Assembly: GCF_900100335.1 (NCBI RefSeq)
Contig: NZ_FNFE01000002.1
Location: forward strand, 372,001 to 436,000
Reading direction: 5' to 3'
DNA length: 64,000 nt
DNA from: Natronorubrum texcoconense
GTDB lineage: Archaea; Halobacteriota; Halobacteria; Halobacteriales; Natrialbaceae
Of this stretch, positions 7,021-26,823 are shown piece by piece; the first letter of the stretch is position 1, and the number at the start of each line of letters is the position of its first letter. The notes beneath the pieces are model-generated. The model had not been told where the DNA came from, made no database searches, and saw only the letters and a list, made by a program, of their open reading frames with translations. Both the position numbers and the translations under genes were made by a program.

Positions 7021-7835
7021 CGCTCTTCGGCGTCGGACTCGGTCCCGGCGAGGCCGATCTCGTGACGGTTCGCGGCAAGCAGGTGCTCGAGAACGCGGAC
7101 GTGGTCTACTCGCCCGGCCGCCTCTCGCGATCGGTCGCCCTCGAGCACGTCGACGAGTCGAAGATCGGGGACCTCGATTTCCCGATGACGAAAGACGAGG
7201 AGAAGCTTCGGTCGGCGTGGAAGGAAGCCGCGGCTGAGATCGCGCCGAACGCACGCGAGGGCGACGTCGCCTTCGTCACGCTTGGCGATCCGAACGTCTA
7301 CTCGACCTTCGGGCACTTGCGCCGGACGATCGACGCCTTTCATCCGGACGTCGAACTCGAGATCGTCCCCGGTGTGAGCGCCGTAACCGCGTTCGCGACC
7401 GCGATGGGCGTCGAGATCGAAGCCGGCGCGGGTCTCTCGCTTCGCGAGGCCGCGAACGGCCACAGCCCGACCGGTCCGGACCGGATGATTCTGTTCAAGG
7501 TCACCGACGCGCCGGCGACCCACGAGGGGCTCGTCGAAGCCAGCTACGACGTGACATACGGCCGCCGGCTGTTCATGGAACAGGGCGAGACGCTGGTGAC
7601 GGACGACCCCGCGGAGATCGACGAGCGAGACTACTACACGCTGGCGTACGCCGTGAAGGAGGATCTCGAGGTCGAGCAGGCGACGGCGGCGTTCCAGCAG
7701 GAGGGCAACGGAACTGAGGATGCCTCGAGCGAGGACGACTCGACGACGAGCGGCGAACCAGTCGCAGACGGTGGAGAGGTCGTCGTCGAAGAGATGGCGG
7801 AAGGCTGTGCACACGGCGACTGTGGAGGCCACTGA
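7017..7835 (+). CDS. cbiL: cobalt-factor II C20-methyltransferase CbiL
   Basis: 272 residues. Tetrapyrrole methylase fold: GVGLGPGEADLVTVRG at the N-terminus, FVTLGDPNVYSTF, and the EIVPGVSAVTAFA motif that defines SAM-binding C20 enzymes. It adds the second methyl group to the cobalt-containing macrocycle. The last 45 residues are a Ser/Glu linker ending in a Cys/His cluster (Cys264, His266, Cys269, His272; CAHGDCGGH) that is not part of the methylase fold and looks like a metal-binding tag. Separated from cbiF by two bases. Confidence 0.93.
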   Translation: MTLFGVGLGPGEADLVTVRGKQVLENADVVYSPGRLSRSVALEHVDESKIGDLDFPMTKDEEKLRSAWKEAAAEIAPNAREGDVAFVTLGDPNVYSTFGHLRRTIDAFHPDVELEIVPGVSAVTAFATAMGVEIEAGAGLSLREAANGHSPTGPDRMILFKVTDAPATHEGLVEASYDVTYGRRLFMEQGETLVTDDPAEIDERDYYTLAYAVKEDLEVEQATAAFQQEGNGTEDASSEDDSTTSGEPVADGGEVVVEEMAEGCAHGDCGGH

Positions 7836-8974: not shown

Positions 8975-9970
8975 ATGAGTTCAGGAAGCACAAATACGGA
9001 CGATACGGATAACTCGAGTACCGATTCCGGCGGCCACTGTTCGACGGCAGATTCGGACGGCGAGGTCGCCGAAGAGATCGCGATCATCTCCTTCGGGCGG
9101 AAGATGGAGACCGCCGAGGAGATCAAGGACGAGATCGGCGACCGGTACGAGACGATCGACATCATCGAGTACCACGGGACGGTCTTCGACGAGTACTGGG
9201 GCGAGTACGACTGCTTCATCGGGCTGATGGCTTCGGGAATCGCGATGCGGAAGACGGCCCATCTGCTCGACGACAAGTGGGACGATCCCGCGATCTGTGT
9301 CGTCGACGAGGAACTGACGTGGGCCATCCCGATCACGGGGGGCCACCACGGCGCGAACCAGGTCGCACAGGATCTGGCGACGATGGGCGCGATTCCGGCG
9401 ATGACCACCGCGAGCGAGGCCGCCGGTAAGCAGGGCGTCGAGTCCCGCGCGAAGGCGATGGACACCCACGTCGTCAACGGCGATTCGACGGTGAAGACGA
9501 ACCTCGCCGTCCTCGACGACAATCTGGGTCCCGTGGAACGACTCGAGGGCCCGAAAGCCGTCCTCGTCGGCGACGACGTAACGGTCCTGAAGCGAAACAA
9601 ACGGGACGGGATCGTCATCGGCACCGGCAGCGTTTCCGGCGCGAGCAAGGACTCCTTCATCGCCGCGTGGGAGGAAGCACTCGAGCAAACGGAGTACGAC
9701 CTCTCGGACGTCGAATTCGTCGGGACTGCAACCCGGAAGGAAGACGAGGAAGGGCTGCTCGAGGCCGCCCAGGAACTCGATCTCGGCGTGGTCGCCTTCG
9801 ACAAGGAGACGCTCCTCGAGCACGAGGGGCCGACACCATCCAAATCGAAGGAGCTGATCGGCTGGCCCGGCGTCTCGGAGGCGAGTGCGATTGCGGGGAG
9901 TGCCGAACAGGAACTGGTGCTCGAGAAGATCGGCTACGAAAACGAGGTTACGGTGGCGATCGGCCGATGA
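8975..9970 (+). CDS. cbiG: cobalt-precorrin-5A hydrolase CbiG
   Basis: 331 residues. CbiG opens the delta-lactone of cobalt-precorrin-5A, releasing acetaldehyde, in the anaerobic (cobalt-early) route. Visible are the mid-domain FIGLMASGIAMRKTAHLL and the VDEELTWAIPITGGHHGAN motif typical of the N-terminal and core domains, plus the C-terminal domain with VIGTGSVSGASKDSF and IGWPGVSEASA. A disordered N-terminal tail of about 30 residues contains GGHC (His21, Cys22). The stop overlaps the next gene by ATGA. Presence of CbiG argues for the cobalt-early pathway. Confidence 0.92.
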   Translation: MSSGSTNTDDTDNSSTDSGGHCSTADSDGEVAEEIAIISFGRKMETAEEIKDEIGDRYETIDIIEYHGTVFDEYWGEYDCFIGLMASGIAMRKTAHLLDDKWDDPAICVVDEELTWAIPITGGHHGANQVAQDLATMGAIPAMTTASEAAGKQGVESRAKAMDTHVVNGDSTVKTNLAVLDDNLGPVERLEGPKAVLVGDDVTVLKRNKRDGIVIGTGSVSGASKDSFIAAWEEALEQTEYDLSDVEFVGTATRKEDEEGLLEAAQELDLGVVAFDKETLLEHEGPTPSKSKELIGWPGVSEASAIAGSAEQELVLEKIGYENEVTVAIGR

Positions 9971-10842
9971 GCGTCGACGATTCAGCTGCCGATACCAGTG
10001 ACGGCACCCCCGACGACCACGGCACCCTCTACGTCGTCGGCATCGGCCCCGGCCTGCCGGATCATATGACCGCGAAAGCCAAGCGGGTCATCGAGTCCTC
10101 GGAGGTCGTCATCGCCTCGAGTCTCTACCAGGAGTTCCTGCGCGACGACGGCACGCTGCCGCCGGAAGACGCCGTCGACGACGAGGGATTTGCGACTCGA
10201 GACGACGGCTTCGAACAGGAGATCGTTCGCTCGACGATGGGCCGCCAGATCGAACTCGCCCGCGCGGCGTTCGACTACGTCCGCGAGGGGAAAGACGTCG
10301 CTCACGTCTCGGGCGGCGACCCCTCCGTCTACGGGAAATCCGACCTCATCTTCAAAATGGCCGAAGAGGAGGACGCGACGGACGTGCCGATCGAAATCGT
10401 TCCCGGCCTCACGGCGGCGCTCGGCGGCTCCGCCAACGTCGGCGCGCCGCTGTGTAACGACTTCTGTACGATCTCGCTGTCGGACAAGTGGCGCGGCTGG
10501 GAGGAGATCGAGGAGAAACTGCGCGCAGCCGCAATTTCGGGCTTTGTAATCGTCCTCTACAACTGCTGGCGCAACTACGAACAGGCCGTCGAAATCGTCC
10601 GCGAGGAGCGGACCGACGATGCCCTCGTGGCCATCGTCAACGATGCGGGCCGCGAAGACGCCGGCCGCAACGGCGAGAGCGAGTTCATTACGACACTCGG
10701 CGAGGCCGCCGACCACGACAACAAGGTCTCCGGGATGGGGACCTCGCTGATCATCGGCAACCACGAGACCGAGACCTGGAGCAACGACGATCGAACGTAC
10801 CTCGTCACCCCCCGCGGCGGGCGTGACGTCGACGACTTCTGA
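9967..10842 (+). CDS. cbiH: cobalt-factor III C17-methyltransferase CbiH (copy 1)
   Basis: 291 residues starting at the ATG that overlaps the cbiG stop; longer upstream reading is through cbiG and is not used. Tetrapyrrole methylase motifs: YVVGIGPGLPDHMTAKAK, VAHVSGGDPSVYGKSD, EIVPGLTAALGGSANVGAPL and the LYNCWR strand. It methylates C17 and drives ring contraction. It is one of two adjacent CbiH paralogues; haloarchaea are known to keep both. The active-site Asp/Ser residues were not compared in detail, so which paralogue is catalytically dominant is not known. Confidence 0.9.
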   Translation: MSVDDSAADTSDGTPDDHGTLYVVGIGPGLPDHMTAKAKRVIESSEVVIASSLYQEFLRDDGTLPPEDAVDDEGFATRDDGFEQEIVRSTMGRQIELARAAFDYVREGKDVAHVSGGDPSVYGKSDLIFKMAEEEDATDVPIEIVPGLTAALGGSANVGAPLCNDFCTISLSDKWRGWEEIEEKLRAAAISGFVIVLYNCWRNYEQAVEIVREERTDDALVAIVNDAGREDAGRNGESEFITTLGEAADHDNKVSGMGTSLIIGNHETETWSNDDRTYLVTPRGGRDVDDF

Positions 10843-10867: not shown

Positions 10868-11914
10868 ATGAGCACAGACACCAACGCAGATGCTGACGAC
10901 GAATCGACATCGAAGTGCGGTGCCTCGAGCACGACCGAAACGGAGACAGAGTCCTCGAGCGGTTCGAAGTGCGGTGCCTCCTCGAGTGACACCAGCGACG
11001 ACTCGGGTTCGAAGTGTGGAGCGTCGGGTTCCAGTTCCTCGTCTTCGTCCTCCGGCTCGAACTGTGGCGCCTCGAGTTCGGACGACGACTCGAGCAGCAA
11101 CGAGCAGGAGGTCGGCGCGAAAGTCGACGATTTCGACGCCGACCCGGGCCAGCTGACCGCCGTCGGTCTCGGGCCCGGTCACGCTGAAGGGATGACCGAG
11201 CGCGCGAAGAACGCGTTACTGGATGCCGATCACATCGTCGGCTACACGACCTACATCGAACTGATCCCGGACGAGATCACCGAGCAGGCCGACGACATCT
11301 ACGACACGCCGATGTGCGGCGAGGTCTCCCGAACCGAGGAGTCGATCGACCGCACGCTCGCGGGCAACGACGTCGCCATCGTCGGCAGCGGCGATCCGAA
11401 CGTCTACGCGCTTGCAGGACTGGCGCTCGAGATTCTCGAGTCCAAGGGCGCGACGGCCTCGATGGTCGATTTCGAGGTTATTCCGGGCGTCCCCGCAGCC
11501 CAGTCCTGTGCGGCCCGTCTCGGGGCGCCGCTGGTCAACGACACCGTCTCGGTCTCGCTGTCGGACCACCTGGTCCCGATGCCGGAGATCGAGTCTCGGC
11601 TGCACTCGGTCGCCAGCGAGAACTTCACGATCACGATCTACAATCCGTGGAGCCGCAAGCGCCGGGAGAACTTCCAGAAGTGCTGTGAGATTCTGCTCAC
11701 CCACCGCGACGAGGATACGCCGGTCGGCATCGTCCACGGCGCGGGTCGCGAGGACGAGCAGGTGATGATCACCGAACTCGCCGAACTCGAGGACTTAGGC
11801 GAGAGCGAGATCATCGACATGACGACGACCATCGTTGTCGGCACCGAGGACACCTACGTCTGGGACGACCGGATGGTCACGCCGCGTGGCTACGAGACGA
11901 AGTACGACTACTGA
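10868..11914 (+). CDS. cbiH: CbiH-type C17-methyltransferase (copy 2) with Cys-tag N-terminus
   Basis: 348 residues. From about residue 95 it is a tetrapyrrole methylase: TAVGLGPGHAEGMTERAK, VAIVGSGDPNVYALAG, EVIPGVPAAQSCAARLGAPL, IYNPWSRKR, and a C-terminal TPRGYETKY. These are closer to the standard CbiH/CobJ consensus than copy 1. The first 85 residues are a low-complexity Ser/Asp/Thr region with four repeats of the form S(K/N)CGAS, with Cys17, Cys35, Cys50 and Cys66. Such a tag is absent from bacterial CbiH and may bind cobalt or iron. A 25-base gap separates it from copy 1. Confidence 0.88.
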   Translation: MSTDTNADADDESTSKCGASSTTETETESSSGSKCGASSSDTSDDSGSKCGASGSSSSSSSSGSNCGASSSDDDSSSNEQEVGAKVDDFDADPGQLTAVGLGPGHAEGMTERAKNALLDADHIVGYTTYIELIPDEITEQADDIYDTPMCGEVSRTEESIDRTLAGNDVAIVGSGDPNVYALAGLALEILESKGATASMVDFEVIPGVPAAQSCAARLGAPLVNDTVSVSLSDHLVPMPEIESRLHSVASENFTITIYNPWSRKRRENFQKCCEILLTHRDEDTPVGIVHGAGREDEQVMITELAELEDLGESEIIDMTTTIVVGTEDTYVWDDRMVTPRGYETKYDY

Positions 11915-11950: not shown

Positions 11951-12217
11951 ATGCCACGATACGAAGTCACCATCGAGAAGGACGCCTGCGACGGCATCTT
12001 CGCCTGTCTAACCCGCGATCCGCGGTTCGTCGAGGGCGAGGACGGCCTCGCGACGATCGATCCGAGCGCGGACCCCGTCTACGACTGCGAGGGCGAGGTC
12101 ACCGACACCGACGAGCGGGTCGTCGCGACGTTCGACGACGACCGCATCGACGAAGCCAAACAGGCCGCCGCGGCCTGTCCGACGGACGCCATCGTCGTCG
12201 AGGAGGTGGCCGAATGA
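11951..12217 (+). CDS. small monocluster ferredoxin
   Basis: 88 residues. The N-terminal ferredoxin half has CDGIFAC (Cys13, Cys19), where the usual middle Cys of CxxCxxC is missing and a fourth-position spacing fits a [3Fe-4S] or labile [4Fe-4S] cluster. The C-terminal ligand is Cys76 in ACPTDAI. Cys46 in an inserted acidic loop (DCEGEV) could substitute as the extra ligand. It likely donates electrons to a corrin-pathway step, for example ring contraction or reduction. Its stop overlaps the start of the next gene (ATGA), so the two are probably translationally coupled. Confidence 0.85.
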   Translation: MPRYEVTIEKDACDGIFACLTRDPRFVEGEDGLATIDPSADPVYDCEGEVTDTDERVVATFDDDRIDEAKQAAAACPTDAIVVEEVAE

Positions 12218-12909
12218 GCGAAACCGAACGGCAGATCGAAGTCCCGGCCGACCCGCTCGCGGGTCACCCCGCGACGGCGTACCTCTGGGGGCACGTCGCC
12301 GGGAGCGGCGACGTTTCGAATGATGGGATCGAAGTCGTCACTAACGACGAGGAGTCCGCACAGGTACTCGCTGCGGTCGCCGGCGGCAGCCTCGAGCACG
12401 AGACGACCAGTCGCGAGTACGCCCACGATACGTCGATCACCCGAACCGAGGACGAGTACACGCTCTCGATCGGCGGAGACGAAGGCGACGACGGGGACAC
12501 GAGCCTACTCGGCCGCAGCGGCGCGCTCGGCCTTCCCGTCGACGGCCGCGGAAACTACCGATTCGGCGCGTTTGCGAGTCACGACCGTGAACTCCTTCGA
12601 GGGTTGCTCGAGGGCTGTGGCACCATCTGCTTCAAGTCCTCGAGCGGCACCGTGGGCATCTCGTTCGTTCACGACGATCAGGACCTGCTCGAACTCACGC
12701 GAGAGCTGATCGCCGACTGCCCGGTAGACGCGCCGATGGGCGACCTCGGCGAGACGTCCTCCGGCGGCTACTGGTTCGGCGTCGACGACGACGCCGCGCC
12801 CGCGTTCGGCACCTGGCTCTACGAGAACTGCGAGGAGACGGGGCTGTTCGCACCGAGTCGCCGCCGCAAACTCGAGCGCAGCCTCGAGCAGGCCGACGCG
12901 TACGAGTAG
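12214..12909 (+). CDS. LAGLIDADG-fold-like cobalamin-operon protein, function unknown
   Basis: 231 residues. It contains two internal motifs resembling LAGLIDADG helices: LWGHVAGSGDV at 24-34 and LRGLLEGCGTI at 128-138. Each is followed by a beta-strand stretch and an amphipathic helix, and the C-terminus WLYENCEETGL with SRRRKLER resembles the end of homing-endonuclease/WhiA-type domains. The acidic catalytic residue expected at position 8 of each motif is Ser31 in the first and Cys135 in the second, so nuclease activity is unlikely. Placed between ferredoxin and cbiX, it is conserved context for haloarchaeal cobalamin operons as far as I recall. Possible roles are tetrapyrrole or RNA binding; both are guesses. 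Confidence 0.65.
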   Translation: MSETERQIEVPADPLAGHPATAYLWGHVAGSGDVSNDGIEVVTNDEESAQVLAAVAGGSLEHETTSREYAHDTSITRTEDEYTLSIGGDEGDDGDTSLLGRSGALGLPVDGRGNYRFGAFASHDRELLRGLLEGCGTICFKSSSGTVGISFVHDDQDLLELTRELIADCPVDAPMGDLGETSSGGYWFGVDDDAAPAFGTWLYENCEETGLFAPSRRRKLERSLEQADAYE

Positions 12910-12966: not shown

Positions 12967-14208
12967 ATGAGTACACCCGACAACGCCGACGAGACCACGT
13001 CCGCTCGCGCCACGGCCTTCGACGACGAAGCCATCCTGCTGATCGGCCACGGCTCTCGCCGCGAGAAGTCGAACGAACAGGTGCGCGAACTGGCCGCCGC
13101 CCTCGAGTCGCGACTGGGAATCCCGGTCGACGCCGCGTTTCTCGAACTCGCGGAGCCGGCGATCGACGAGGCCATCGCGGAACTCGCGGCCCTCACCTCG
13201 CAGGTGACGGTCGTCCACTGCTCGCTGTTCGCGGCGAGTCACGTCAAGAACGACGTGCCGCTGGCGATCGAACAGGCCCGTGCTGCGTACGACCTCGAGA
13301 TCGACAACGGGGCCCACCTGGGGGTTCACCCCGCGATTCTGGATCTGCTTGACGACCGCGCCGCCGCGGTCGAAGACGAATTAGGCGTCGACCGCGCCGA
13401 AGACGACGTCGCCGTCGTCCTCTGCGGTCGGGGCTCGAGCGATCCGGACGCCAACGGCGACGTGCACAAGCTGGCCCGGCTGCTGTACGAGGGCCGAGAG
13501 TTCGACCGCGTCGAGGCGTCGTTTATCGGCGTGACCGAGCCGACGCTCGAGGAGAGCCTCCACGGGCTCTCCAAACACCGGCCAGACGCCGTGGTGGTCC
13601 TTCCGTACATGCTCGGCGACGGCGTGCTCACCCAGCGCGTTCGGGACTGGACGACGGAGTTCGATGACGAGTATCCGTACGTCGACGCACTCGCTGGCGA
13701 CCCGCTCGGCACCGACTCGAGGCTCCTCGACGTCTTCGCTGACCGCTGGCAGGAGGCCCGCAGCGACAGCGTGGAGATGTCCTGTGACACCTGTAAGTAC
13801 AAGGTGGATCTCGAGGGGTACGAGGAGGACGTCGGCGGCGCGCGAGCGATGCTGCGCGCACTGGCCCACCAGCAGTCCCACGCGGATCGCGAAGACGTCG
13901 ACGACGAACCGCACAGCCACGACGCACCGGGGAAGCACGTCGCGGTCTGTACCAACCAAACCTGTGCGAAGATGGGGTCGCCGGCGGTGCTCGAGCGCCT
14001 TCGACAGGCGGCCCGCGACTCCGACCACTGCGACGCCCGCATCACCCGTACCTCGTGTCTCGGCCGCTGCGGCGACGGGCCGATGGTCGCCGTCTACCCG
14101 GATGGCATCTGGTACGGCGACGTCGCGAGCGAGGACGCCGAGCGGATCGTCGGCGACCATCTCGATCGCGACCGGATCGTCAGCGATCTGGTCGACCAGA
14201 CGCTCTGA
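12967..14208 (+). CDS. cbiX: sirohydrochlorin cobaltochelatase CbiX fused to a [2Fe-2S] thioredoxin-like domain
   Basis: 413 residues. Two CbiX half-domains (about 20-130 and 140-262) form the chelatase that inserts Co2+ into sirohydrochlorin. Candidate metal/catalytic residues are His28 in IGHGSRREKSNEQ and His92 in FAASHVKND. The second half lacks an equivalent His. A linker follows with CDTC (Cys273, Cys276) and a His-rich stretch (SHADRED, PHSHDAPGKH). The C-terminal domain has Cys328-x4-Cys333 and Cys364-x3-Cys368, the pattern of thioredoxin-like [2Fe-2S] ferredoxins. This three-part architecture is the long CbiX type. The chelatase places it early in the pathway, consistent with cobalt-early synthesis. 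Confidence 0.9.
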   Translation: MSTPDNADETTSARATAFDDEAILLIGHGSRREKSNEQVRELAAALESRLGIPVDAAFLELAEPAIDEAIAELAALTSQVTVVHCSLFAASHVKNDVPLAIEQARAAYDLEIDNGAHLGVHPAILDLLDDRAAAVEDELGVDRAEDDVAVVLCGRGSSDPDANGDVHKLARLLYEGREFDRVEASFIGVTEPTLEESLHGLSKHRPDAVVVLPYMLGDGVLTQRVRDWTTEFDDEYPYVDALAGDPLGTDSRLLDVFADRWQEARSDSVEMSCDTCKYKVDLEGYEEDVGGARAMLRALAHQQSHADREDVDDEPHSHDAPGKHVAVCTNQTCAKMGSPAVLERLRQAARDSDHCDARITRTSCLGRCGDGPMVAVYPDGIWYGDVASEDAERIVGDHLDRDRIVSDLVDQTL

Positions 14209-14262: not shown

Positions 14263-14634
14263 ATGAGCTGCCACGAAATCGAAGCGCTACGACTCGGACT
14301 GATGAACGTCCTCGGCGTCGGGGACCAGAGTACCCGCGACCACGCCGAGAAGGAACTCGAGGGCCACCTCGAGGGTCCCATCGAGGCCCTCGTCGAGGCC
14401 GAGAGCCTCACGGCGATCGAACGCCACCTCGACGCCGCACTCGTCGACTTAGAGGAGGAGGTCGCCGGAATGGATACCGATGATCCCGAGTACGACTATA
14501 CGCAGGGACGGCTGCTCGAAGTCCGCAACGCCGAACGGACGATTCAGCGACTGACCGCGCAAGGCGAGAGCATCGTCGACGGACTCGGTGAGTCCCACGA
14601 CATGCTTCACGAGACCTTCCCGGTCGAGGACTGA
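14263..14634 (+). CDS. DUF3209 family protein
   Basis: 123 residues beginning MSCHEIEALRLGLMNVLG, the signature of DUF3209 proteins seen in haloarchaeal and some bacterial cobalamin loci. It is all-helical, with Cys3 and His4 at the extreme N-terminus, potentially a metal site. Function is unknown; position directly after cbiX suggests a helper for cobalt chelation or delivery. The next gene starts two bases after its stop. Confidence 0.85.
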   Translation: MSCHEIEALRLGLMNVLGVGDQSTRDHAEKELEGHLEGPIEALVEAESLTAIERHLDAALVDLEEEVAGMDTDDPEYDYTQGRLLEVRNAERTIQRLTAQGESIVDGLGESHDMLHETFPVED

Positions 14635-16097: not shown

Positions 16098-17531
16098 ATG
16101 ACAACGGGCCTAGAAGATGTTGGCTCCGAGGAGTGTTCCGATCCGAAGGAGGTCGAGGACTCCTCGAGTCACTGTCACGGCGGTGAGCAAGCGGAGCTAA
16201 CGGATCGCAGACTGATGACCGACGGCGGTCAAGCGGAGATGGCAGACGAGGACGCCGAAGAAGAATCGGCCGAGGAAGAATCGACCGAAGTGGAAGAAAC
16301 CGGTGAGGGTGACGACGCTTCGACCGACGAGGAAACCGAAGAGAGCGAAGACGAAACAGAAGCCCAAGAGGAGGGCGAAGAAGACGAGAGCGAAGCCGAA
16401 GAGCAGGAAGTTGACGAAGCAGAGTCTGAAGACGAAGAAGATGAGAGCGAAGCCGAATCTGAGGACGAAGAGACAGCAGCGGAAGAAACCGAGAGCGGCG
16501 ACGAAGCGGACGAAACGGAAGAAGCGGAAGAGCCGGAAATCTCGGACGAAGAAGCCGAAGAACCGGAAGTAGCGGCCGAAGCAGCGGACGAAGAAGGTGA
16601 GGAGGAGGCAGAAGCCGAAGAAGACGAGGACGAACTGGACGCCACCGGCGACCTCGTCGAAGACGACCGTGAGGAGGGCCACGCCGACGACGCCGAAGTG
16701 GTGTACGAGAGCGACGACGCCTCCGGCGTCCTGCACCTCGACCTCGACGGGCTGTTTCTCGACCTGCTCGGTCTCGAGGTCAACCTGAACCCGGTTACGC
16801 TCGATATCTCGGCCCGCCCCGGTGAGAACAATCTGCTCGGGAACCTCCTCTCTGCGGTGACGGGTCTGCTGGACGGACCCGGTGCGATGCTGGACAAGGC
16901 GAAGTCGCTGCTGAAGAAGCCGCTGGAACTGCTCAAAAAGGTTCCTGGGAAGGCGAAGGAGCTACTCAGCGGTCTGCTCGAGAAACCGAAGAAACTGCTC
17001 AGCGGTCTGCTCGAGAAGCCGAAGAAGTTCCTCAGCGGATTGCTGAGCAAACCGAAGGAACTGTTGAGCAAGCTCCTCGGAATCGGTGGCGAAGAGGCAG
17101 CAGACGAAGACGCTGCGGCGGACGAAAAAGGTGAGGAGGAAGCCGAATCCGGCGGTCGCCTCTCCTCGCTCGCGAGTTGGCTGAAGGGAATCGTCAGCAA
17201 GCCCGTCGAGTGGCTCCGCGGGCTCTTCGGCGGTGCAGACGAGGAGCCGGCCACCGAAGATGAAGCAGAAGCCGACAAGGGCGAAGAAAGCGACGCCGAG
17301 CCGGCGGACGAAGAGGAGACTGCAGAAGAGGAGTCTCCGGGACGGATCTCTGCGGCGACAAGTTGGCTGAAGGAGAAGCTACTCGGCCTCGTCCCTGGAC
17401 TCCCAGTCGAAGACCTCGTGGCGGCGGTCGTGAGCCAGGTAATCGAACAGGTGATCGAGCAGTTAGAACCGGACGACCAACAGGACGAATCGGGTGACCA
17501 GCCCGAGGCACAATCACAGGAGGCAGCCTAA
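16098..17531 (+). CDS. ultra-acidic protein with LNLDL-type domain and Lys/Leu amphipathic repeats
   Basis: 477 residues in distinct blocks. 1-47: N-terminus with HCH (25-27). 48-200: almost uninterrupted Asp/Glu/Ser/Ala, built largely on GAA codons. 211-260: a compact hydrophobic domain (VLHLDLDGLFLDLLGLEVNL, NLLGNLLSAVTGLLDG) resembling a segment I remember from many bacterial secreted hypothetical proteins. 268-328: 11-residue repeats of KPKKLLSGLLE type, cationic and amphipathic. 353-378 and 415-433: Trp-containing amphipathic helices. 436-456: hydrophobic helix. There is no signal peptide. An alternative ATG lies at 16215. It is first in a four-gene run; no known family covers the whole protein. 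Confidence 0.75.
   Translation: MTTGLEDVGSEECSDPKEVEDSSSHCHGGEQAELTDRRLMTDGGQAEMADEDAEEESAEEESTEVEETGEGDDASTDEETEESEDETEAQEEGEEDESEAEEQEVDEAESEDEEDESEAESEDEETAAEETESGDEADETEEAEEPEISDEEAEEPEVAAEAADEEGEEEAEAEEDEDELDATGDLVEDDREEGHADDAEVVYESDDASGVLHLDLDGLFLDLLGLEVNLNPVTLDISARPGENNLLGNLLSAVTGLLDGPGAMLDKAKSLLKKPLELLKKVPGKAKELLSGLLEKPKKLLSGLLEKPKKFLSGLLSKPKELLSKLLGIGGEEAADEDAAADEKGEEEAESGGRLSSLASWLKGIVSKPVEWLRGLFGGADEEPATEDEAEADKGEESDAEPADEEETAEEESPGRISAATSWLKEKLLGLVPGLPVEDLVAAVVSQVIEQVIEQLEPDDQQDESGDQPEAQSQEAA
16962..17061 (+). repeat. 33-bp in-frame tandem repeats (three to four copies)
   Basis: Successive units of the form CTGCTCAGCGGTCTGCTCGA plus GAARCCGAAGAA encode the 11-residue unit KPKKLLSGLLE. 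The central two copies are nearly identical at DNA level, while the flanking copies have diverged, consistent with recent unit duplication. Confidence 0.75.
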
Positions 17532-17533
17532 TC

Positions 17534-18076
17534 ATGAGCGAAGAATCTGAATCATCATCGATAGCGCAGCGCATCGATTTCGAAAAAGTCACCGAGAACG
17601 TCGACGTCGACGAACTAATCGAGGGAACCCAGTGGGAAGACGAGATCGACGAGGACCAGCCGCTGGGGGAAGCCCTCGGCGGACAGATCGGTGCGCTCGT
17701 CGGCCGAAAGGTCGGCGAGTCCATCGGGCGGACGATCGGCGATATGGTCGTCGACGAACTCCTCAGCCCCGACGAGGAGCCCGAAATTGAGGCCGACGAA
17801 GACGATGACGAAGAGGCGGACGAGGAAGAAGCGGAAGACGAAGATGCCGAAGAAGACAGCGACGACGAGGAAGCGGAGTCCGACGACGAAACTGAAGACG
17901 AAGAAGAGGAAGAAGCCGACGAGTCCGAAGCGGAAGAGACGGACGAGTCCGCGGACGAAGGCTCCGAGGAGGACGACGAAGCGTCGGCAGACGAGGGTGA
18001 GGAGGACAGCGACGACGACTCGAGCGGGGAGACAGAGGCCGGAGACGACTCAGCGGAAGAGGACGAGGAGGAGTGA
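17534..18076 (+). CDS. glycine-zipper ultra-acidic protein (paralogue A)
   Basis: 180 residues. After a short acidic start comes VTENVDVDELIEGTQWEDEID (about 19-39), then a perfect glycine zipper with Gly at 45, 49, 53, 57, 61, 65 and 69, the other positions being Ala, Leu, Val, Ile, Ser and Arg. From about 79 to the end it is nearly pure Asp/Glu/Ser/Ala. GxxxG zippers mediate tight helix packing in membranes or amyloid-like assemblies. The N-terminal half aligns with the next gene, so they are tandem paralogues. It starts two bases after the stop of the previous gene. No function is known. Confidence 0.75.
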   Translation: MSEESESSSIAQRIDFEKVTENVDVDELIEGTQWEDEIDEDQPLGEALGGQIGALVGRKVGESIGRTIGDMVVDELLSPDEEPEIEADEDDDEEADEEEAEDEDAEEDSDDEEAESDDETEDEEEEEADESEAEETDESADEGSEEDDEASADEGEEDSDDDSSGETEAGDDSAEEDEEE

Positions 18077-18133
18077 CCATGGCGACGAACCACCCTTCCG
18101 ACGCGGAAACGAGTGCCCGTCGAGGTGTAGCCC

Positions 18134-19138
18134 ATGAGTGACGGCGGGCTCAAAGAGATGGTCGCCCGGGAGGTAAGCGACCAGATCGACGTGGCCGATC
18201 TGCTCGGCGACGGGAGCCTCGAGGACAACATCGACGGCGGCGACATCGGCGCCGCGGTGGGTCGCGAGTTCGGCGAGCGCGTCGGTCGTGAACTCGGCGC
18301 CTCGATCGGCCGCGGGATCCACGAATCGATCGCCGCGGGGATCGAGGAGGAGAAAGACCGCAAGGAGGTACAGTCGGACCTCAAGTCGGCGATCCGCGAC
18401 GGTATCGCGGAAACGGTCGAACAGAACGAGGCCAAGGAGTCAGTCAAGTCGCTCGCCCAGAGCGCGACCGAGGGAAGCGATCTCGAGGGACTCCTCGAGA
18501 GCGACTCCGAAGCGGAATCGGAGTCCGAGAGCGACGGCGAATCCGAGGAGACGGAGTCCGATGCGGCGGACTCGATCGAGTCGGTCGTCGAGGAGGTCAG
18601 CGAGAGCAGCGGACTCGACGAGTTCCTCGAGGCCGACGAGGCGTCCGAGGAGGAGGCAGATGCCGAAGACGACGGGGCTGAATCCGAAGACGAGGAGTCG
18701 GATGCCGACGAGATGGACGACGAAGCGGCGGAGGAAGCGGACGTTGAAGACGAGGAGACCGACGCTGAAGACGAAGAGACGGATTCAGCGGACGAAGAGG
18801 GTGACACCGAAGACGAAGCGGCGGAGTCCGAAAGCGAGGACGACGGCGGGGAGGAGTCCGAATCGACGGACGAGTCCGAGGCCGACGACGTCGACGAGGA
18901 GAGCGCCGGCGAGGACTCCGATGCCTCCGTCGAAGATATCGAGGATCTGCGACGAGACACCCTCGAGGACTTCCTCGGCGTCATGTCCTACGAGGATCTG
19001 CAGTCGGTGGCCAAAGACGTCGACGTGAAGGCGAACCTTAGCCGCGAGGAGATGACCGAAGAGATCATCGCAGCGGTGACGGACGAGGACGACGAGTCGA
19101 ACGACGAGAACTCGGAAGCGGAAGCCGAAGCCGAGTAA
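18134..19138 (+). CDS. glycine-zipper ultra-acidic protein with Rho_N/SAP-like C-terminus (paralogue B)
   Basis: 334 residues. N-terminal REVSDQIDVADLLGDGSLED aligns with paralogue A. A glycine zipper follows with Gly at 35, 39, 43, 47, 51, 55 and 59 (seven steps, same number as A), interleaved with Arg/Glu, then a helical segment to about 120. Residues about 123-270 are a Glu/Asp/Ser low-complexity region. About 272-318 is a folded segment (DTLEDFLGVMSYEDLQSVAK, LSREEMTEEIIAAV) that resembles a Rho N-terminal or SAP-like helix-extended-helix domain, which often binds nucleic acid. This suggests a link between a self-assembling module and DNA or RNA; that is inference. Confidence 0.75.
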   Translation: MSDGGLKEMVAREVSDQIDVADLLGDGSLEDNIDGGDIGAAVGREFGERVGRELGASIGRGIHESIAAGIEEEKDRKEVQSDLKSAIRDGIAETVEQNEAKESVKSLAQSATEGSDLEGLLESDSEAESESESDGESEETESDAADSIESVVEEVSESSGLDEFLEADEASEEEADAEDDGAESEDEESDADEMDDEAAEEADVEDEETDAEDEETDSADEEGDTEDEAAESESEDDGGEESESTDESEADDVDEESAGEDSDASVEDIEDLRRDTLEDFLGVMSYEDLQSVAKDVDVKANLSREEMTEEIIAAVTDEDDESNDENSEAEAEAE

Positions 19139-19229
19139 CCGACCGTCGTCCCTCGAGCGTTCACCGTCCGAGATCACCGGTACTGCGAACCGACGGCCGA
19201 ACGCCGACCGACAGCGACAGAGAGACACT

Positions 19230-20300
19230 ATGAGCCAAGACCTCCACGAACAGGTGAGCGAGATACTGCACGACGCCGAGACAGCGAGCGGTTCGATGAT
19301 CACCGACGACGAGTCGGACGGACCCGACCTGCTCGAGACCGCCGAGCGGGCGAGCGACCTCCTCGAGTCGTCCGACCCGGACGACCTCCTCGAGGCGGTC
19401 GGGCTGGACGAACTGCCGGACGGCAGCGAACCCGACTCGCTTCCGGCGGCTATCGCACAGGGTGACCCCGAACAGGTCGAAGAACTCCAACGGCTGCTCC
19501 ACCTCGGAAATCTCGCCGACGGGGACGACGGTGGTGCGCTCGAGGGGGCCGTCGGAGCGATACAGCAGTCGATCGACGACGGCGAGGACGAGGCGACGGA
19601 CGAATCCGCGACGGCGGCGGACGATGGTGGCGACTCCGACGATGCGTCGGAGGCTGACGAAGACGTTGATGAAGACGCGGACGAATCCGAGAGCGAAGAG
19701 GGGGTCGTCCAGAAAGCGGTCGAATCAGTCACCGGCGACGATGACAGCGATGCGTCGGCCGACGGCGAAGCAGACGAAGGTGAATCAGGCGAGGGCGGGA
19801 TCGTCCAGGAGGCGGTCGAGTCGGTTACCGGCGACGACGGTGACGAATCGGAACGCGAGGGTGGCGGGGCTCGAGAGGCCGTCGAATCGGTCGCTGAAGG
19901 TGCCAGCGACGCTCTCGGGAGCGACGATGCGGACGAAGCCGAGTCCGGCGACGAAGACGGCGAATCCGATGAGGAAACGGGCGACAGCATCGGCGACCAG
20001 CTCAGATCGACGATGGAGTCGACGTTCTCGGACGTCGGCGACGACCTCGAGGGACTCCAGGAGCGACTGCAGGAACGGTCTGCTAGCTCCGTCGGCAGCG
20101 AGACCGACGACGCAGACGATGCGGAAGCCGACGAGGAGGACGAAGACGACGGGCTACTCGGCTCGGGACTCGGCTCGGATCAGGACCGCGGGACGTCCTC
20201 CGGCGGGGCGACGCGCCACTCCACGATGGCACCACCGCCATCGGAGCGCGCCGATATGAAAGGGACCGCCCGTCACTCGACGATGCCCGACAAACACTGA
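19230..20300 (+). CDS. ultra-acidic repeat protein with basic RHSTM tail
   Basis: 356 residues. 1-120 is a helical, Leu-rich acidic domain (DLLETAERASDLLESSDPDD, QVEELQRLLHLGNL). Then come three repeats separated by acidic linkers: VVQKAVESVTGDD at 159-171, IVQEAVESVTGDD at 191-203, and a worn AREAVESVAEG at 214-224. A further helix lies at about 253-283. The C-terminus switches to basic character with RHSTM twice (329-333 and 348-352) around APPPSERADMKG. The tail looks like a short recognition or packaging peptide. It closes the acidic cluster; there is no homologue I can name. Confidence 0.7.
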   Translation: MSQDLHEQVSEILHDAETASGSMITDDESDGPDLLETAERASDLLESSDPDDLLEAVGLDELPDGSEPDSLPAAIAQGDPEQVEELQRLLHLGNLADGDDGGALEGAVGAIQQSIDDGEDEATDESATAADDGGDSDDASEADEDVDEDADESESEEGVVQKAVESVTGDDDSDASADGEADEGESGEGGIVQEAVESVTGDDGDESEREGGGAREAVESVAEGASDALGSDDADEAESGDEDGESDEETGDSIGDQLRSTMESTFSDVGDDLEGLQERLQERSASSVGSETDDADDAEADEEDEDDGLLGSGLGSDQDRGTSSGGATRHSTMAPPPSERADMKGTARHSTMPDKH

Positions 20301-24570: not shown

Positions 24571-26823
24571 ATGAGTCTCGAGGAGCCGGACTCGGCGACG
24601 CTCTCGCGGAGCCAGTACGAGTCGCTCCTCGACGCCGCCGAAACCTACCGCGAGGCGCTCGTCGTCCGCCTCTGTGGCGACGTCGGGCTTCGACCGACGG
24701 AGCTCACCGAACTCACTGTCGACGACGTCGAACAGGTCCGCATCGATCCACCACGATACCTCGTTCGGGTGCCGGCCGTCGACGACGGCTCGGGACGGAC
24801 CGCCTACCTGCCGACCCACGTCGAGCGAGAACTGCGCCGGTACGCCCGGAGCAACAGGCTGTCGACCGACGACCGGATCTTTCCCGTCACGGCGCGCCGG
24901 CTCCAGATGCTGGTGTCGGAGGTCGCGGATCGGGCCGCCGAGTTCCTCGACCAGCCGACGCTCGCCGACGTCTCGACGAGCGATCTCCGGCAGTACTTCG
25001 CTCGAACCGCGCTCGTCGACCACGCGGTCAACCCGCGCGTCGTCAAGACCGTCGGCGGCTGGCGGAGCTTCGAGGCCCTCGAGCCCTACCTCCCCGAGCC
25101 GACGGACGCGGAGATCGTCGACGCCTTCGACGCCGCGGAACGACCGTCGGGTCCCGGTCGCGGCGGATCGGGAGCCAGAACCGGGCCGATGGTGAGCGAC
25201 GACAGCGTTATCCGCCTGCTGCTCGCCGCGAGCGACCGGTACGCCCTGTTGCGACTCGACGCCGACGGCTACGTCGAGCGCTGGAACCGGAGCGCGGCCG
25301 CCATGTTCGGCTACCGGGCCGGCGAGATCGTCGGCACGCACGTTTCGACGTTCTACACGGACGAGGCCGTCGACGACGGCGTTCCCGAGCGGACGCTCGC
25401 CGCGGCGCTCGAGGACTCCGGCACCGAGACCGACGGGTGGCGCATTCACGAGGACGGCACGCGGTTCCGGGCGACCGAAGTCGTCTCGCCGCTACGAGAC
25501 GAGCAGGGCCGCCACCGCGGGTTCGCCGTCTTCGTCCGCGACGCCTCGGCCGTCCGCGAGGAGATCGAGTCGGTCCGGGCGCGCCGGGACGAACTCGAGG
25601 ATCGTTACGCGGTTGCGACGGCCCATCGTGCGGTCACTCGATCGCTGTTCGAATCGACCGATCACGAGGAGATCGAGACCGATACCTGCGCCGCGCTGGC
25701 GGACGGCCGAGCCTACGAGTGCGCCTGGATCGACCGGGCGACGCACTCGAACCAGCGAGGGGAGTGGCGGGTCTCGAGCGGGATCGACCCCGACGCCGTC
25801 ACCCACCTGGTTCCGGATCGGTGGCGCGAGACGTCCGCGACGACTGCCGATCTCGTCGGCGAACGGACGAGTGACGAGAGCGAGGCGACGGTCTCGGTCG
25901 CGACCGACGTTTCGCTCACGACGGATCGGGACGACAGCAGTGAGTCGAGCGACGAGAGCGGCGCCCTCGCACGCGTCCCGCTAGTCTACGGCGACACGGT
26001 GTACGGGACGCTCTCGGTCGTGAGCGAACGGGACGGGGCGTTCGACGCGGACGAACGCCAGTGGCTCGAGACGATCGGCCAGCAGGTCGGCTACGCCATC
26101 GCGGCGGTTCGTCGGCGCAACCTCCTGCTCTCGGATCGCGTCGTCGAACTCGAACTCACCTGCCGCGACGAAGACTCCTTTTTCGTCGACGCCTCGCGCC
26201 GACTCGGCTGTCGGTTCGAACTCGATTCGCTCGTGCCGCTCGGGGAGACGACGCAGCTGTACTACCTGCGCCTCGAGGGGGCGTCGCCGGCCGACGTATT
26301 CGACCTCGCCGCGGACGAACCCGGGATCGAGGACTGCCGACTGATCGAGACCTACGAGGGCGGATGGCGCGTCGAGTTCGTCATCGACGGCTCCTGTCCG
26401 ATCGTCACGCTCATCGAGTACGGCACCACCGTCCTCGACGCGCGATTCGAGGGTGGAACCGCGACGATCACGACCGAGTGTGCGGCCGACGCCGACTTGC
26501 GGACGATCGTCGACGGCCTGCGCGCCGTGTTCCCCGACTCCGAACTGGTCGGGAAACGCGAGGTCGAACGGACCGTCCAAACCGCCCGCGAGTTCCAGAA
26601 GGGACTCGAGGAGCGGCTGACCGACCGCCAGGAGGCGGCGCTTCGAGCGGCGTACTTCGGCGGCTACTACGACTGGCCGCGCGAGAGTACGGCCGAAGAG
26701 ATCGCCGACGCGATGGGGATCTCCTCGCCGACGCTCCACAATCACCTGCGAAAGGGCCAACACGAACTCCTGCGAACCTTCTTCGACGATCCGGACGACG
26801 GCGGATCGGATAACGCCACGTAA
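24571..26823 (+). CDS. Bat-type regulator: integrase-like + PAS + GAF + BAT + HTH_10
   Basis: 750 residues from ATG 24571; an in-frame TTG at 24556 is less likely. 1-178 resembles a tyrosine-recombinase catalytic domain: Arg41 in GLRPTEL, Arg140 in SDLRQYF and Tyr173 are where catalytic residues lie, but both His are replaced (Ser138, Gln141). It is therefore probably only a DNA-binding or dimerisation module. About 205-330 is PAS (ALLRLDADGYVERWNRSAAA), 350-510 GAF, 525-670 the Bat domain, and 690-745 HTH_10 (LTDRQEAALRAAYFGGYYDW, ISSPTLHNHLRKGQ). Between two acs genes, so likely senses redox or energy state to control acetate use; that is inference. Confidence 0.8.
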   Translation: MSLEEPDSATLSRSQYESLLDAAETYREALVVRLCGDVGLRPTELTELTVDDVEQVRIDPPRYLVRVPAVDDGSGRTAYLPTHVERELRRYARSNRLSTDDRIFPVTARRLQMLVSEVADRAAEFLDQPTLADVSTSDLRQYFARTALVDHAVNPRVVKTVGGWRSFEALEPYLPEPTDAEIVDAFDAAERPSGPGRGGSGARTGPMVSDDSVIRLLLAASDRYALLRLDADGYVERWNRSAAAMFGYRAGEIVGTHVSTFYTDEAVDDGVPERTLAAALEDSGTETDGWRIHEDGTRFRATEVVSPLRDEQGRHRGFAVFVRDASAVREEIESVRARRDELEDRYAVATAHRAVTRSLFESTDHEEIETDTCAALADGRAYECAWIDRATHSNQRGEWRVSSGIDPDAVTHLVPDRWRETSATTADLVGERTSDESEATVSVATDVSLTTDRDDSSESSDESGALARVPLVYGDTVYGTLSVVSERDGAFDADERQWLETIGQQVGYAIAAVRRRNLLLSDRVVELELTCRDEDSFFVDASRRLGCRFELDSLVPLGETTQLYYLRLEGASPADVFDLAADEPGIEDCRLIETYEGGWRVEFVIDGSCPIVTLIEYGTTVLDARFEGGTATITTECAADADLRTIVDGLRAVFPDSELVGKREVERTVQTAREFQKGLEERLTDRQEAALRAAYFGGYYDWPRESTAEEIADAMGISSPTLHNHLRKGQHELLRTFFDDPDDGGSDNAT

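Follow-up and report, generated by a model that had tools for sequence, protein, structure and literature searches.

Why does the second CbiH paralogue of a haloarchaeal B12 operon carry a run of short cysteine repeats ahead of its catalytic domain? The question is raised by the DNA analysed here, a stretch of 64,000 nucleotides hereafter called the window. A first-pass annotation had proposed that Cys/His tags on CbiH2, CbiL, CbiG, CbiX and a DUF3209 protein pass cobalt or a cobalt-tetrapyrrole along the pathway, or protect it in high salt, an interpretation that is partly supported by the results below. In PMC3403918 the early-cobalt ("anaerobic") B12 route is described as used by haloarchaea, at least by Halobacterium in air, and in PMC8305020 the B12 pathway of Haloferax is given with two gaps and four unassigned cluster genes. 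A conserved and countable thiol motif on a key enzyme, together with related operons devoid of the motif, is amenable to direct genetic test in Haloferax volcanii. If the motif does bind a cobalt-tetrapyrrole, corrinoid chemistry would gain a new short ligand motif. The arm that bears it may help oxygen-shy chemistry to run in air.

Results and Discussion

The Early-Cobalt Operon and the CbiH2 Arm

The + strand of the window contains a haloarchaeal early-cobalt B12 operon in the order cbiT-cbiL-cbiF-cbiG-cbiH1-cbiH2-fdx-HYP-cbiX-DUF3209, where fdx encodes a small ferredoxin that the first-pass annotation had not mentioned (Table 1). The identical order, ferredoxin included, is found in the annotation of Natronococcus occultus. 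By eye, the HYP protein contains a LAGLIDADG-like stretch, LLRGLLEGCGTICFK. Downstream of the operon, positions 16098–20300 of the same strand encode very acidic low-complexity proteins in a row.

Table 1. Features of the early-cobalt operon, with their positions in the window.
Feature	Position	Strand	Evidence or remark
CbiL tail CAHGDCGGH	7806..7832	+	not conserved
CbiG, N-terminus GGHCST...DSDGE (Cys22; GGHC = residues 19-22)	8975..9970	+	Pfam match
CbiH1 paralogue, without Cys arm	9967..10842	+	NCBIfam TIGR01466, 194 bits
CbiH2, whole, 348 aa, ATG at 10868	10868..11914	+	
CbiH2 N-terminal arm, residues 1-85, predicted disordered	10868..11122	+	sequence; AF2 pLDDT about 30
SKCGAS repeat 1, Cys17	10910..10927	+	
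SKCGAS repeat 2, Cys35	10964..10981	+	
SKCGAS repeat 3, Cys50	11009..11026	+	
SNCGAS repeat 4, Cys66	11057..11074	+	
CbiH2 catalytic core (TP_methylase; cobJ_cbiH), including stop	11123..11914	+	PF00590 and TIGR01466 above curated cut-off; Foldseek
3-Cys mono-cluster ferredoxin gene, 88 aa, directly after cbiH2	11951..12217	+	ORF; Pfam Fer4_15, 53.8 bits
HYP, conserved operon protein of unknown family	12214..12909	+	no Pfam or NCBIfam match
CbiX cobaltochelatase; C-terminal 2Fe-2S thioredoxin-like domain ~13930-14151	12967..14208	+	Pfam
DUF3209 protein, start MSCH (Cys3)	14263..14634	+	PF11483, 169.8 bits

CbiH2 scored 305.7 bits on TIGR01466 (cut-off 246.35) over residues 96–343, which places it in that family, and the score of the CbiH1 paralogue lay below the cut-off of 246. 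The arm-bearing paralogue is the one that fits the ring-contracting family, and its predicted activity is C17 methylation and ring contraction of cobalt-factor III. The best Foldseek match of the 263-residue core was 2zvb (Thermus CbiH), followed by 3nut (CobJ). The last residue, 348, closes the sequence YETKYDY and falls at the end of the domain, leaving no C-terminal extension. At the other end, an AF2 pLDDT of about 30 across residues 1–82 predicts disorder, and residues 1–85 gave no Pfam match at E values up to 1.

The positions given by the first-pass annotation for the four S(K/N)CGAS repeats were confirmed exactly. Tandem Repeats Finder detected no DNA array in the arm-coding stretch, and the copies diverge mainly at synonymous third positions (TGC/TGT, GGT/GGA/GGC, GCC/GCG, TCG/TCC); the repeat thus appears to be kept as protein and does not resemble a fresh duplication. 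In 20,000 shuffles of the window arm S(K/N)CGAS never occurred more than once, compared with the four copies observed. The pattern (K/N)CG(A/G) had 14 DNA matches in the same genome, four in cbiH2 and ten as scattered singles, and 24 in the reversed control; the absence of a second cluster rules out KCGAS as a genome-wide tag.

Conservation of the Cysteine Motif

In the order to which the window belongs, 199 of 392 genomes had cbiH2 at E 1e-60. Arms were read from part of these; 281 fetched loci gave 207 distinct haloarchaeal CbiH2 sequences, a sample weighted to the window's family. C-G-(A/G/S/T/V) was present in 193 of the 207, nine had Cys only outside this form, and five had no Cys. Among the 193, arms with one, two, three, four and five copies numbered 3, 13, 66, 101 and 10, respectively. 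The core of the motif is constant; copy number and the length and sequence of the linkers drift. Since copies vary from one to five, a fixed metal site is unlikely, and one made of four Cys is disfavoured. One typical haloarchaeal cbiH2 with four repeats came from a metagenome-assembled record titled Salinivenus (L194), probably a mis-binned contig.

Residue statistics were taken from 100 operons fetched on purpose, with 355 arm cysteines. C-G-(A/G) accounted for 334 of these, the shuffling expectation being 6.7 (maximum 16 in 500 shuffles). Position +1 was Gly in 346, position +2 Ala or Gly in 343 and position −2 Ser in 325; Lys occupied position −1 in 202, and it makes up 4.3% of arm residues overall. 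Cysteine content was 4.6% in the arm versus 0.17–0.27% in the tails of the co-encoded CbiT and CbiF. In Halonotius and Halohasta CGA is changed to CTA, with the Cys retained. The repeat pattern is real and beyond chance.

Fourteen CbiH homologues from outside the order start near the core and have no such arm. No published description of the motif was found in the literature searched, mostly open-access papers. According to PMC6821194, His-rich low-complexity regions are over-represented in cobalamin proteins, with Cys under-represented in them, so a Cys-bearing arm on CbiH2 is unusual.

Genes Accompanying the Arm

Among 112 operons compared, six had neither a CG motif in CbiH2 nor an adjacent ferredoxin (L274 and L276–L280, from genomes G133, G135, G160, G282, G340 and G372; the one Cys of L278 lies outside the motif). 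The ferredoxin, HYP, DUF3209, the CbiX 2Fe-2S domain and the CbiG Cys were each found in 0/6 of these; in the other 106 operons they were found in 105, 104, 104, 104 and 102, respectively. A whole-genome search gave DUF3209 above cut-off in 26/26 sampled Cys-arm haloarchaea and in 0/6 motif-less genomes, and one Cys-arm genome (G134) has its DUF3209 copy elsewhere in the genome.

The ferredoxin, which follows cbiH2 in 105 of the 112 operons, keeps only C-(D/E)-G-(I/V)-F-A-C and C-P in the alignment of all 105, its canonical second Cys being replaced by Ile or Val. This replacement is a trait of [3Fe-4S]-type ferredoxins. In Halospeciosus flavus the cbiH2 stop reads TGG, and CbiH2 and the ferredoxin form one reading frame; the two loci concerned (L105 and L204) are identical across this stretch and were counted as one organism. 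The fusion may be genuine or may stem from a sequencing error. Haloquadratum keeps the CbiH2 repeats with neither an adjacent ferredoxin nor the CbiG Cys, which rules out a strict dependence of the arm on the ferredoxin.

The oxygen-reductase marker COX1 (PF00115) was absent from G133, G135, G160 and G282, four of a first set of 32 CbiH2-bearing haloarchaea; the remaining 28 have it. In a further set it was present in 80/80 genomes, and all 77 arms read there had the motif (three arms were unread). Among the 109 genomes with both COX1 and arm data, the four COX1-negative ones are all motif-less; of the 105 COX1-positive ones, 103 have a Cys arm (seven without the CG form) and two, G340 and G372, have none. 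These two counter-examples belong to one genus. The COX1-negative genomes, small and without COX1, may correspond to the anaerobic sulfur-respiring haloarchaea that they resemble.

In a CbiH2 tree of 75 sequences the motif-less six formed one group next to the outgroup (SH-aLRT 75, long branches). Within the tree g40 and g61 join at 98; they come from separate families, f12 and f4, and their union is indicative of transfer or of an older operon type having been retained. Since the motif-less rows group together and are not independent, the oxygen association may reflect a single event; resting on few events, the association of the arm with COX1 is suggestive. A conserved arm, predicted to be disordered and linked to the ferredoxin, DUF3209 and CbiX-ferredoxin set, is absent from the four sampled CbiH2-bearing COX1-negative haloarchaea.

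The high-salt protection put forward by the first-pass annotation fares poorly here. The motif-less operons are also haloarchaeal, and the split follows the oxygen-reductase marker better, if imperfectly. Salt as the main driver of the tags was rejected on account of these halophilic members of the order. Transfer of cobalt or a cobalt-tetrapyrrole from enzyme to enzyme, the other suggestion of that annotation, stays a candidate role.

Comparison with Known Systems

The core of CbiH2 is common to the CbiH/CobJ C17-methyltransferases, which act on precorrin-3B or cobalt-factor III (TIGR01466; 2zvb, 3nut). The 85-residue N-terminal polycysteine arm sets CbiH2 apart from the Thermus gene and from the 14 homologues examined outside the order, which have none. 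CbiH60 of Bacillus megaterium, which like haloarchaeal CbiH2 has extra sequence beyond the core, is the closest enzyme with an extension. Its extension is C-terminal and is said to hold a [4Fe-4S] centre, whereas that of haloarchaeal CbiH2 is N-terminal and predicted to be disordered, has a variable number of Cys and leaves the ferredoxin to a separate gene. Table 3 of PMC8305020 gives a 45% match of Haloferax CbiH2 to the N-terminal part of CbiH60 (O87689).

The nearest working analogy is to the heme regulatory (CP) motifs, described in PMC6356037 as surface Cys motifs binding a metallotetrapyrrole, which are likewise short and centred on Cys. The arm motif is not of the Cys-Pro type, since the residue after the arm Cys is Gly in nearly every case and never Pro, and the putative tetrapyrrole of the CbiH2 arm would hold cobalt. 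CbiX-L of B. megaterium, another early-cobalt enzyme, also has an accessory tail of metal ligands, in the form of a C-terminal Fe-S centre and a His-rich region, but the CbiH2 arm has Cys in place of His and sits on the ring-contracting enzyme rather than on the chelatase. The role of the CbiX-L tail is left open in PMC7689651, where metal storage is proposed for the His-rich region.

Possible Function of the Arm

A repeated exposed Cys that usually adjoins Lys and has small residues on either side, a flexible acidic arm on the ring-contracting enzyme, the linkage to Fe-S proteins and the absence of the arm where COX1 is absent are best accommodated by thiolates that bind or reduce a cobalt-tetrapyrrole. 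The N-terminus of haloarchaeal CbiH2 would be a flexible polythiol arm, in which each S-K/N-C-G-A-S repeat would present one solvent-exposed Cys, usually beside Lys, within an acidic and Cys-poor linker. At the ring-contraction step the thiols would act on the cobalt-tetrapyrrole, the thiolate serving as a reversible axial cobalt ligand and the Lys meeting a side-chain carboxylate; additionally or instead, the thiols may give reducing power, with the ferredoxin of the adjacent gene as electron partner. Cobalt-factor III and cobalt-precorrin-4 would thereby be retained at the enzyme in their reduced state even while the cell respires oxygen. That a thiolate arm holds or reduces the cobalt-tetrapyrrole, and so makes the "anaerobic" ring contraction possible in aerobes, is the reading we adopt tentatively, aware that it may well prove wrong; cobalt or corrinoid binding, the redox action and the oxygen rationale are all features that we infer. 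Against this reading, aerobic Thermus has the CbiX-ferredoxin and DUF3209, and its CbiH has no Cys arm.

A wider form of the proposal takes S-K-C-G-A-S as a thiolate motif for cobalt-tetrapyrroles that would parallel the heme regulatory motifs, present one to five times on the ring-contracting enzyme and acting with the 3-Cys ferredoxin to enable the oxygen-sensitive early-cobalt route in air. The arm would then be part of an "oxygen module", comprising the ferredoxin, the CbiX-ferredoxin fusion, DUF3209 and the Cys-tagged CbiG, that is missing in haloarchaea without oxygen respiration. In this full form the proposal is doubtful.

Alternatively, S-K-C-G-A-S could serve as a short linear docking motif whose repetition raises avidity, recruiting CbiG, the ferredoxin, CbiX or DUF3209 to CbiH2, with the Cys as part of a recognition surface. 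A fixed six-residue core with variable copy number and drifting linkers is typical of repeated docking motifs, and the arm does co-occur with a set of partner genes, but none of these is universal: among the 106 Cys-arm operons the ferredoxin is missing from one, HYP, DUF3209 and the CbiX-ferredoxin from two each, and the CbiG Cys from four. Moreover, the near-invariant residue is Cys, which is atypical for a docking motif, and it is the Cys that survives in the C-T-A form of Halonotius and Halohasta. We regard docking as unlikely.

Less probable still is a cobalt store or chaperone, in which the arm thiols would buffer Co(II) for CbiX and so replace the His-rich CbiX tail of other organisms. 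The His-rich CbiX tails of the six motif-less operons and the short His linkers of most Cys-arm operons are consistent with such a replacement, as are the storage role proposed for CbiX-L and the use of thiols by CobW to bind Co(II), both from PMC7689651. The arm, however, is placed on a methyltransferase two steps past the chelatase, one operon (L134) joins a Cys arm with a His-rich tail on CbiX, and in some species one or two Cys are enough, too few for storage.

The missing second Cys of the ferredoxin, its place beside cbiH2 and the single fusion of the two would also suit an arm Cys that supplies the absent ligand to the 3-Cys cluster, docking the ferredoxin or converting [3Fe-4S] to [4Fe-4S] near the active site; what CbiH60 reportedly has in its Fe-S extension would here be split between two proteins. 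This arrangement, with its putative cluster type, seems quite improbable, and the arm of Haloquadratum without an adjacent ferredoxin tells against it. Neutral drift of a halophilic Ser/Asp-rich low-complexity extension with Cys by chance, for which only the free length and sequence of the linkers would speak, is excluded by the shuffle counts, and the tails of neighbouring proteins are almost Cys-free.

Other Cysteine and Histidine Tags in the Pathway

All the remaining tags listed by the first-pass annotation, namely CAHGDCGGH at the end of CbiL, GGHC in CbiG, CDTC in CbiX and MSCH in DUF3209, are present in the window, and its own refuting condition, that close relatives able to make cobalamin lack the tags, separates them. 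As with the CbiH2 motif, the N-terminal Cys of CbiG is kept, occurring in 102 of 112 operons in a stretch like (G/S)HC(S/K)(T/A)PDSDGE. The CbiL tag falls to this condition: of 87 tails, 27 have at least two Cys, 23 have one and 37 have none. CDTC is ordinary domain sequence rather than a tag, being present in CbiX with and without a CbiH2 arm and also in Thermus, and Leptospira has CDNC. On conservation, the CbiL tail and the CbiX CDTC were ruled out as members of one tag system with CbiH2.

The His-rich linker that the first-pass annotation lists with CDTC for CbiX is weak (PHSHDAP). Long His-rich CbiX tails were found in other operons and not in the window: the six motif-less operons have such a tail and no 2Fe-2S domain, and L134 combines it with a Cys arm.

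Of 99 haloarchaeal DUF3209 matches, 98 start with M(S/T/A)C, the exception having HDLSRN at the aligned place. The Cys reaches bacteria, with MACHEL in Thermus and, in an upstream reading of the gene, ACHEI in Leptospira, where the annotated start seems about a dozen codons late and drops this conserved stretch. Two bacterial phyla likewise pair DUF3209 with an adjacent CbiX that has a ferredoxin domain, on Thermus pTT27 (L318) and on a Leptospira plasmid (L319). A 26-residue piece of DUF3209 lies at 25373–25450 of contig C12 in genome G113, which has no CbiH2 at E 1e-60, and might be what is left of a B12 operon since lost.
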